Origin: Methanobacteriota archaeon
GTDB taxonomy: Archaea; Thermoplasmatota; Poseidoniia; Poseidoniales; Thalassarchaeaceae
DNA length: 64,000 nt
Assembly: GCA_016845365.1 (NCBI GenBank)
Contig: JAERST010000013.1
Span: forward strand, 1 to 64,000
Reading direction: 5' to 3'
Made by a program: the position numbers and the translations under genes. The notes beneath the pieces were generated by a model that was not told the origin of the DNA, did not search any database, and worked only from the letters and a program-made list of their open reading frames with translations. The first letter of the stretch is position 1. Each line of letters opens with the position of its first letter. Below are positions 4,867-6,419 of this stretch, in pieces.

Positions 4867-5133
4867 ATGGCTATGGAGAACTCAGACGTCGGGTCCATCG
4901 AGCAGACTGCTCAGAAGTTGCAGGATGACATCGAGGAGCGCGTACGCCGAGTTCAGACCGGCTCGATGGCTCGTATCTTGAAGATGGCCCGCAAGCCATC
5001 CAAGCAAGAGTTCCGCCAGACTGTAATCGTCTGTGGAATCGGTATGTTCGTTCTCGGCGCAATCGGCTTCGGCATGCTTTGGCTGATGGACAATGTCCTG
5101 CCGCAATTCTTCGCTTGGCTAACCAGCCCCTGA
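4867..5133 (+). CDS. secE: Preprotein translocase subunit SecE (Sec61-gamma)
   Basis: 88 aa, RILKMARKPSKQEFRQTVIVCGIGMFVLGAIGFGMLWLMD single-TM pattern; position before spt5. Confidence 0.85.
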   Translation: MAMENSDVGSIEQTAQKLQDDIEERVRRVQTGSMARILKMARKPSKQEFRQTVIVCGIGMFVLGAIGFGMLWLMDNVLPQFFAWLTSP

Positions 5134-5143
5134 GGTGTGAGAG

Positions 5144-6043
5144 ATGTCTGACGCATTCGTTGTCTACGTTCGCCACGGCGAAAAAGTTCTGATTATGCAG
5201 CGCGCCGATGAGGTCGCTGATTTCCCCGGCGCTTGGGATGGAATCTACGGCGTCGGCAATCCAGAAGATATCGACGCTGTTACCGCTCGCGTCACCGAGT
5301 GTACCGGGCTCCCTGCCGAGTCGCTCGAACACGTTCGCTCCGGTCCCGCTCGCGGTCTCGAATTCGGAAACCGCCTCAACGACGTGATTCCTCTGCTCTT
5401 CGTCTCAGATACTAACGAGGTCTCACCTCGAACAATCTACAAGAATCACGATTGGGTCGACCCGGCCAATATCGAGCACTACAAGACCGACAAGGCCGAA
5501 GGAACAGGCGCACCTCGCTACGCTATTCCTCAGATTGGTGCAATGTATGGCGACGTCGCCTCTTTCCTCTACATCCTCAAGACCAGCATCGGTCAGGAGC
5601 AGAACGTCGCCAAGGAAATCCGCGCCCGTCTCTCAGGAACCGGGTCGCTCAAGGATATCCAAGACGAAATCTTCGGAGTCCTCGTCCCAGGCCACGTCCG
5701 TGGCTACATCTTCGTCGAGGCCTCCGCGCTTCACCACGTCGAGAAGCTCATCGGAATGGTCGGCATGACCACGACTCGCCTGAAGAATTGCCGCAAGGTG
5801 CTTCCAGGTGTCTCGCCTCTCGAAAACACACTTTCCTACCTCGAGCCGAAGGCGGCCACCGCCGGAATCGAGGAAGGCTGCATCATCGAGATTAGCGGTG
5901 GCGCCTTCAAGGGTCAATCCGCTCGCGTCGTACGCGTTACAGAATCCAAGGAAGAGGTCACGGTCGAGCTCTTCGAAGCGGCTGTACCAGTCGCTCTGAC
6001 CGTGCGCGCTGACCAAGTAAGAGTCACTCAGCGCGTCGAATAA
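5144..6043 (+). CDS. spt5: Transcription elongation factor Spt5 with N-terminal Nudix-like domain
   Basis: C-terminal half is NGN (SFLYILKTSIGQEQNVAKEI) plus KOW (IEISGGAFKGQSARVVRV); first ~140 aa resemble a Nudix fold (VLIMQRADEVADFPGAWDGIYGVG...). Confidence 0.88.
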   Translation: MSDAFVVYVRHGEKVLIMQRADEVADFPGAWDGIYGVGNPEDIDAVTARVTECTGLPAESLEHVRSGPARGLEFGNRLNDVIPLLFVSDTNEVSPRTIYKNHDWVDPANIEHYKTDKAEGTGAPRYAIPQIGAMYGDVASFLYILKTSIGQEQNVAKEIRARLSGTGSLKDIQDEIFGVLVPGHVRGYIFVEASALHHVEKLIGMVGMTTTRLKNCRKVLPGVSPLENTLSYLEPKAATAGIEEGCIIEISGGAFKGQSARVVRVTESKEEVTVELFEAAVPVALTVRADQVRVTQRVE

Positions 6044-6140: not shown

Positions 6141-6419
6141 ATGGCAGCACGTAATGAGACGCCTCATGTGATCATTCAGACCCTCGGTCAGAAGAAGTGC
6201 AACGGCGACTGGGATGCGTCCACTGAGAACCTCTCGATGGACCAAGTCAAGCAGATCGCTGAGAAGCAGAAGGACCGCTTGACCGGTGCTAATCTGTATG
6301 CGCGCTCGCGTGAGGTCATGGGTACCTGCGTGGCAATGCGCGTCAAGGTCGAAGGCATGGAGCCTAAGGCCGCTCTAGCAGCAATGACAGAAGGGAGATT
6401 CAACGAGCATTTTGAGTGA
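6141..6419 (+). CDS. rpl11: Ribosomal protein L11, C-terminal domain only
   Basis: 92 aa; ENLSMDQVKQIAEKQKDRLTGANLYARSREVMGTCVAMRVKVEGMEPK matches the archaeal L11 CTD; sits between spt5 and rpl1; no N-terminal domain. Confidence 0.8.
   Translation: MAARNETPHVIIQTLGQKKCNGDWDASTENLSMDQVKQIAEKQKDRLTGANLYARSREVMGTCVAMRVKVEGMEPKAALAAMTEGRFNEHFE

Follow-up and report, generated by a model that had tools for sequence, protein, structure and literature searches.

Archaeal Spt5 is described as an NGN domain followed by a KOW domain, and the NusG/Spt5 family has, as far as we know, been described as the sole universally conserved family of transcription factors. One Spt5 gene of the Poseidoniales family Thalassarchaeaceae, in the window examined here (the whole stretch of 64,000 nucleotides that was analysed), starts some 140 residues ahead of its NGN domain, and an earlier note, made from the sequence alone, had taken this added segment for a Nudix-like domain with a degenerate Nudix box. 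The locus thereby raises the questions of whether the joined gene is real, what the added segment is and where it came from, and what it may do on an elongation factor.

The fused gene and its distribution

The features of the locus are as follows.

4867..5133, + strand: SecE, conserved upstream neighbour (name from translation and gene order)
5132..5137, + strand: Shine-Dalgarno-like GAGGTG, read from the sequence; overlaps the SecE stop codon, upstream of the fused ORF
5144..6043, + strand: Spt5 fused to an N-terminal pseudo-Nudix domain; ATG start, 299 aa and a stop codon
5144..5476, + strand: predicted Nudix-fold domain, residues 1-111 (AlphaFold2 model, fold searches, family profile matches, tree)
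5249..5311, + strand: degenerate Nudix box, residues 36-56, GVGNPEDIDAVTARVTECTGL (alignment to the related free family)
5477..5533, + strand: linker, residues 112-130, variable and modelled with low confidence (pLDDT <50 at 115-126; mean pairwise identity 35%)
5534..5563, + strand: connecting helix, residues 131-140 (MYGDV), conserved, Tyr135 and Gly136 invariant (alignment and AlphaFold2)
5564..5818, + strand: NGN domain, approximately residues 141-225 (PF03439, E=2.2e-12; Spt5 structures)
5861..6034, + strand: KOW domain, approximately residues 240-297 (TIGR00405 over 143-297; PF00467 at 249-275)
6141..6419, + strand: uL11 without its N-terminal domain, conserved downstream neighbour (PF00298, E=3e-7; PF03946 absent)

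The gene order in the window is secE, the fused spt5, the uL11-like gene, uL1, uL10 and the stalk protein gene, the names of secE, uL1, uL10 and the stalk protein having been read off translations and gene order. Of 108 family members, 89 have a Shine-Dalgarno-like motif ahead of the annotated start. Codon 134, just ahead of the NGN domain, encodes Met in 95 of the 108 sequences and is preceded by such a motif in none of them (control positions, 17%), which rules out an internal start yielding a short Spt5. Because a start signal is absent ahead of the NGN domain, the fused form is expected to be the sole product, and this single intact gene should produce only fused Spt5.

The earlier note had also placed NGN and KOW domains in the same reading frame, and this is borne out by PF03439 and TIGR00405 over residues 143-297. 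The Spt5 equivalog model TIGR00405 scores 108.3 bits there (cut-off 69.95; E=3.1e-31), and PF03439 identifies the NGN domain of the window protein. The KOW domain that follows is covered by TIGR00405; its own model, PF00467, falls slightly below the cut-off in the window protein (21.0 versus 22.3 bits) and matches 47 of 49 family members at E<=1. The NGN region resembles 3p8b and 9bct, and residues 143-297 (E=7e-25 to 3p8b) are the NGN-KOW part held in common with the Spt5 proteins of P. furiosus (3p8b), M. jannaschii (4zn1) and T. kodakarensis (9bct). As in other archaea, the Poseidoniales gene sits between secE and rpl11, and the partner Spt4 is encoded (PF06093 above cut-off in 59 of 59 genomes, the source genome included). 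Unlike these archaeal proteins, the Poseidoniales protein adds an N-terminal pseudo-Nudix domain and a connecting helix, and its full matches to TIGR00405 are lower (approximately 88-119 bits, versus mostly 130-198 in other Thermoplasmatota).

The fusion was found in 55 of the 59 relatives tested, some matches being partial at contig ends. In a class-wide search, 121 Poseidoniales genomes had a Spt5 match; in 118 of these the match lies within an open frame of 280 aa or more, and the other three matches are partial. Both Poseidoniales families carry the fusion, in more than 100 species genomes, one of which is a single 2.06-Mb contig, and this dates the event to the base of the order. The sister order MGIII has a Spt5 of NGN-KOW form in which a short leader, approximately 20-40 residues long, comes before NGN, so an extra domain general to the class is ruled out. 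It should be noted that the genomes used are mostly metagenome-assembled, which leaves room for the idea that a Nudix gene and spt5 were misjoined by assembly or annotation. Yet the same junction recurs in independent metagenome-assembled genomes and in what appear to be single-cell genomes (AG-422-I22, AG-447-I14 and others) as well as across more than 100 species genomes, the listed full-length matches are all free of internal stops, and the domain is under purifying selection. Since the fusion spans Poseidoniales and is absent from MGIII, misassembly is excluded as its source, and we consider an artefact of any kind extremely improbable. The survey of relatives that the earlier note had called for thus found the fusion in all close relatives with an assembled spt5 locus, and not a misassembled junction.

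The same note's statement that archaeal Spt5 is normally NGN-KOW only is right for most archaea and fails for several families of Thermoplasmatota. Spt5 of families f16, f23, f26, f29, f36, f37 and others bears a different N-terminal domain of approximately 130 aa with an EW...P.G..D signature. These domains, examined at loci L164, L169 and L177-L187, have no Pfam match above cut-off; with neither a Nudix motif nor a Pfam Nudix match, their assignment to the Nudix fold is unsupported. They look beta-rich or beta-sandwich-like, a resemblance that is not confirmed. Because the domains added differ, the Spt5 N-terminus was extended at least twice in Thermoplasmatota.

Two smaller variations were seen within Poseidoniales. 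One genus (g3; L139) has a strongly acidic tail of approximately 60 aa ahead of the Spt5 Nudix domain, which recalls the acidic N-terminus of eukaryotic Spt5. The NGN domain of Poseidoniaceae contains a basic insert of approximately 9 aa (GRDPxARRG; alignment A1 columns 231-241, e.g., L172, L192, L200) that is lacking in Thalassarchaeaceae.

Fold and ancestry of the added domain

Residues 1-140 of the window protein, scanned singly against Pfam, gave no match, Nudix included, and for this reason family-level evidence was required; they weakly match a Nudix-fold isomerase model (E=0.022). When the 49 non-redundant fused proteins of the alignment were each scanned singly, PF00293 (NUDIX) matched 14 (best 6.1e-6) and the Nudix-fold model IPP_isom_1 matched 22 (best 1.5e-4). 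Searching PDB sequences with the N-domain profile returned NADH pyrophosphatase as a suggestive best match (E 0.013). AlphaFold2, run on the family alignment, predicts strands, a Nudix helix at residues 43-54 and further strands after it, with pLDDT by block of 73-95 over residues 1-110 and pLDDT mostly 80-97 in the N-domain; modelled alone, the N-domain reached a pTM of 0.81. The alignments behind these models contained no active Nudix sequence. With the predicted structure as query, VIA-align gave Z scores of 14.6 to NudI over 126 residues, and 13.8 and 12.9 to the Nudix domains of the regulators NrtR and AraR, and the 50 entries matched at Z 12.8-14.6 were all Nudix-fold among the matches listed. 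Foldseek, given the N-domain model alone, likewise returned exclusively Nudix-fold structures among the matches listed. According to these models, residues 1-111 form a Nudix fold, and we regard it as almost certain that Spt5 carries a pseudo-Nudix domain here. The earlier reading of the first 140 or so residues as Nudix-like therefore holds by fold, family profiles and phylogeny, the fold itself spanning residues 1-111, and the AlphaFold and Foldseek comparisons proposed with it yielded a Nudix fold rather than another one.

The matches to isomerase models do not extend to identity as a type I IPP isomerase, which was rejected: the score with TIGR02150 is 14.6 bits, far below the cut-off of 105.8. 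No Cys follows Trp31, at the position of the isomerase motif, in the fused-protein alignment, and the IPP isomerase motif NSCCSHPL is found on a separately encoded protein of the same genome (locus L215).

In many other Thermoplasmatota, profile searches with the N-domain singled out one Nudix gene in each genome as a strong match (best E 1e-16 to 1e-18). The products are either free proteins with a length of approximately 135-150 aa or form the C-terminal half of an AcnX-swivel-Nudix protein. These are the closest relatives of the Spt5 domain by both profile and tree. Profile-profile comparison with hhalign (alignment A3) gave a probability of 99.2 over 116 columns, and in a maximum likelihood tree that also included 31 other Nudix proteins from the phylum, the Spt5 domains and the free family were united against these with support of 96/90. 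The Spt5 domains group as a single clade, with a stem length of 2.24 changes per column, and may branch inside or beside the free family, a topology in which the free family is itself a clade not being rejected (AU p=0.44). By these sequence comparisons, the Spt5 N-domain stems from a Nudix family of Thermoplasmatota whose members elsewhere stand alone or, in several families, are fused to an AcnX swivel domain. Unlike the Spt5 domain, these members keep their Nudix box intact, have all five Glu invariant and are unattached to Spt5.

No free member of the family was found in Poseidoniales, where the other Nudix proteins score at most approximately 51 bits with the profile of the family (156-192 for true members) and, where placed in the tree, group with other Nudix groups. 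This fits a capture that left no surviving free copy; it could also be that the free gene was lost before the domain was captured from elsewhere. One route, in which the gene was freed through loss of the AcnX isoprenoid branch in Poseidoniales, is ruled out, since AcnX was found in 95 of 98 genomes across the class. Viral relatives of the N-domain were searched for and not found.

At L268-L274 (e.g., L269:4932-5753) the related Nudix domain is fused to an AcnX swivel domain of the phosphomevalonate dehydratase small-subunit type, and the fusion adjoins an AcnX-like gene, which Pfam confirmed in L269. This arrangement suggests that a Nudix step is tied to the archaeal mevalonate pathway; in the searched literature, Nudix was not found together with either enzyme name. 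At L258, L259, L261 and L262, which represent several families, the free Nudix gene lies directly 3' of a gene of approximately 594-611 aa, whose product in L261 Pfam identifies as a PIN-ATPase-KH protein.

Loss of the catalytic residues and constraint on the domain

The Nudix box, with the consensus GX5EX7REUXEEXGU, carries the metal-binding Glu of Nudix enzymes. Residues were counted over 112 distinct Spt5 sequences and 19 free or swivel-fused relatives. Glu42, Glu54, Glu57, Glu58 and Glu103 (free-family numbering) are invariant in the relatives. In Spt5, the Glu54 position is Arg in 111 of 112 sequences (Arg49 in the window protein), the Glu58 position is C/S/V/A/T in 112 of 112 (Cys53 in the window protein) and the Glu103 position, likely the general base of the free family, is L/I/R/V in 112 of 112. 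At the Glu57 position (Glu52 in Spt5), 107 of 112 sequences keep an acidic residue, Glu or Asp, and at the Glu42 position Asp predominates. The box does not survive as a metal-binding Glu motif, the Glu54 and Glu58 positions being replaced in all 112, and these counts confirm for the whole set what the earlier note had read from one sequence, namely that most metal-binding Glu are lost from the box as quoted there.

An enzyme with an unorthodox active site would be in keeping with the mostly acidic residues at the Glu57 and Glu42 positions and with the different chemistry used by some Nudix-fold enzymes such as IPP isomerase. Against this stand the loss of two of the three Glu of REUxEE, an Arg in the metal site and a likely base that is missing from every sequence, and, as regards isomerase chemistry, the lack of the corresponding Cys and the separate NSCCSHPL protein encoded in the same genome. 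Retained catalysis is thus very unlikely, and we are highly confident, on these residue patterns, that the N-domain is non-catalytic.

Leu16, Arg20, Trp31, Asp32, Gly33, Thr54, Pro83, Tyr99, Trp104 and Asp106 are invariant in the 112 Spt5 sequences; of these, Asp32, Tyr99 and Asp106 are novel compared with the free family, and so are the near-invariant Arg49 and a conserved loop with Gly71 and Leu78. Median dN/dS values for close pairs are 0.061 for the N-domain, 0.017 for NGN and 0.006 for KOW, to be read as orders of magnitude with dS near saturation, and the N-domain evolves approximately 3.6 times faster than NGN. To judge from these substitution rates, selection on the N-domain is purifying. 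Since catalysis was lost while new residues became fixed, the pattern indicates altered function and not decay.

These data also bear on whether the domain is a relic, joined by chance, stripped of its activity and kept since its deletion harms the folding or expression of Spt5. Its faster evolution relative to NGN and KOW is what such a remnant might display, but the new residues were fixed and kept across both families, in more than 110 distinct sequences, the domain is under strong purifying selection, and no sampled Poseidoniales lineage has shed the domain. We therefore regard a relic as unlikely and a functional binding module as probable.

Possible roles on the elongation complex

The reading that we tentatively prefer, and to which we would give a little under an even chance as a whole, is that of a captured, dead Nudix domain whose ligand binding is relayed to NGN. 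A Thermoplasmatota Nudix-family gene would have been joined in frame ahead of Spt5 in the Poseidoniales ancestor, after which three catalytic carboxylates would have been lost and the new set of residues fixed. Because NGN should bind the RNA polymerase clamp as in other archaea, the Nudix domain would be carried on the elongation complex, where we infer that it rides as a binding module. The old substrate cleft may still bind a nucleotide-like ligand without cutting it, and binding would be relayed via the conserved helix 131-140 to NGN, altering the action of Spt4/5 on RNA polymerase. The linker is poorly predicted in the model, which makes rigid coupling between the two domains uncertain. 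The new invariant residues would line the old cleft if the Nudix topology of the model is followed. The Arg that replaces Glu may simply stabilise the fold, Entamoeba CFIm25 having Lys at that place (PMC3695940). Ligand sensing in particular has somewhat less than an even chance.

Several inactive Nudix domains offer comparisons. MsNrtR has lost hydrolysis and still responds to ADP-ribose (PMC6800001), and AraR, which is without catalytic residues, uses its connecting helix as a hinge (PMC4666351). As proposed here for the Poseidoniales protein, MsNrtR and AraR (Z 13.8 to NrtR and 12.9 to AraR above) use a non-hydrolysing N-terminal Nudix domain to steer a transcription effector domain at the C-terminus; unlike that protein, they are bacterial, and their effector is a DNA-binding winged helix that acts in promoter control, in whose place NGN and KOW stand here. 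Dead Nudix domains also occur in RNA processing and Pol II elongation, but as separate eukaryotic proteins, for which we claim no close homology: CFIm25 (NUDT21) has lost catalytic Glu, lacks hydrolase activity and binds RNA, the Entamoeba protein having Lys there (PMC3695940), and CCAR2 (DBC1), a member of the DBIRD complex, which acts on elongation by Pol II, has an inactive Nudix domain that binds NAD (PMC10834508). The extra domain DII of Thermotoga maritima NusG is, like the Spt5 N-domain, lineage-specific, but it is a different domain and not Nudix; it aids recruitment and lends stability to the complex (PMC7819879). The T. kodakarensis structure shows NGN in contact with upstream non-template DNA and KOW extending to the terminator FttA, and it has no density for the first three residues of Spt5 (PMC11616081), for which last reason the Spt5 N-terminus appears free to carry a domain.

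The same comparisons lend themselves to a second possibility, that the dead Nudix domain is a constitutive docking or stabilising platform that binds RNA, DNA or protein (RNA polymerase, FttA or the ribosome) with no sensing of a metabolite. CFIm25 is a precedent for a dead Nudix domain that binds RNA, and does so beside CPSF73, a relative of FttA; NusG DII is a precedent for an added domain of this kind. Spt5 bridges FttA to RNA polymerase (PMC11616081), and a match to the FttA family (TIGR03675) was found in 39 of 39 genomes, 37 above cut-off. The different N-terminal domains that other families of the phylum put at the same place, and the conserved Gly71/Leu78 loop that is new relative to the free family, would also be in keeping with docking, and evolution faster than that of NGN also suits a docking or structural role. 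On the other hand, many of the new invariant residues fall, by topology, at ancestral cleft positions and not on the outer sheet. By analogy with these systems we hold docking to be a serious possibility, to be put below even and not far behind ligand sensing. The earlier suggestion of a sensor or protein-interaction module without catalysis is compatible with either role.

Whichever role applies, a whole marine archaeal order has added a catalytically stripped Nudix domain to a universal elongation factor family. Poseidoniales are abundant marine archaea, and the domain probably binds something for their transcription machinery. Ligand sensing, if true, would let metabolism bear directly on a general elongation factor; docking, if true, would hint at a component of elongation or termination not yet known in archaea. 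The wider proposal that Spt5 is here a metabolite receptor, whose Nudix cleft binds a nucleotide-type signal and retunes elongation or termination genome-wide, is conceivable but rather doubtful. The searched literature, which leaves out the majority of subscription journals, contained no description of a pseudo-Nudix domain on a NusG/Spt5 elongation factor, and domain databases may already show this pairing. Each half belongs to a known kind, and what appears new is the combination of Nudix and Spt5.

The neighbouring uL11 shows a further change. The window protein is 92 aa and lacks the PF03946 N-terminal domain, for which a credible match was found in 0 of 67 Poseidoniales genomes versus 10 of 12 in MGIII and 14 of 14 controls. 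This domain, at the base of the ribosomal stalk, is otherwise universal to our knowledge. A stronger variant, in which the Spt5 domain is part of a rewired transcription-translation coupling in an order that lost the uL11 N-domain, strikes us as very unlikely. The uL11 loss and the Spt5 fusion each trace to the base of the order, so their coincidence counts as one event.
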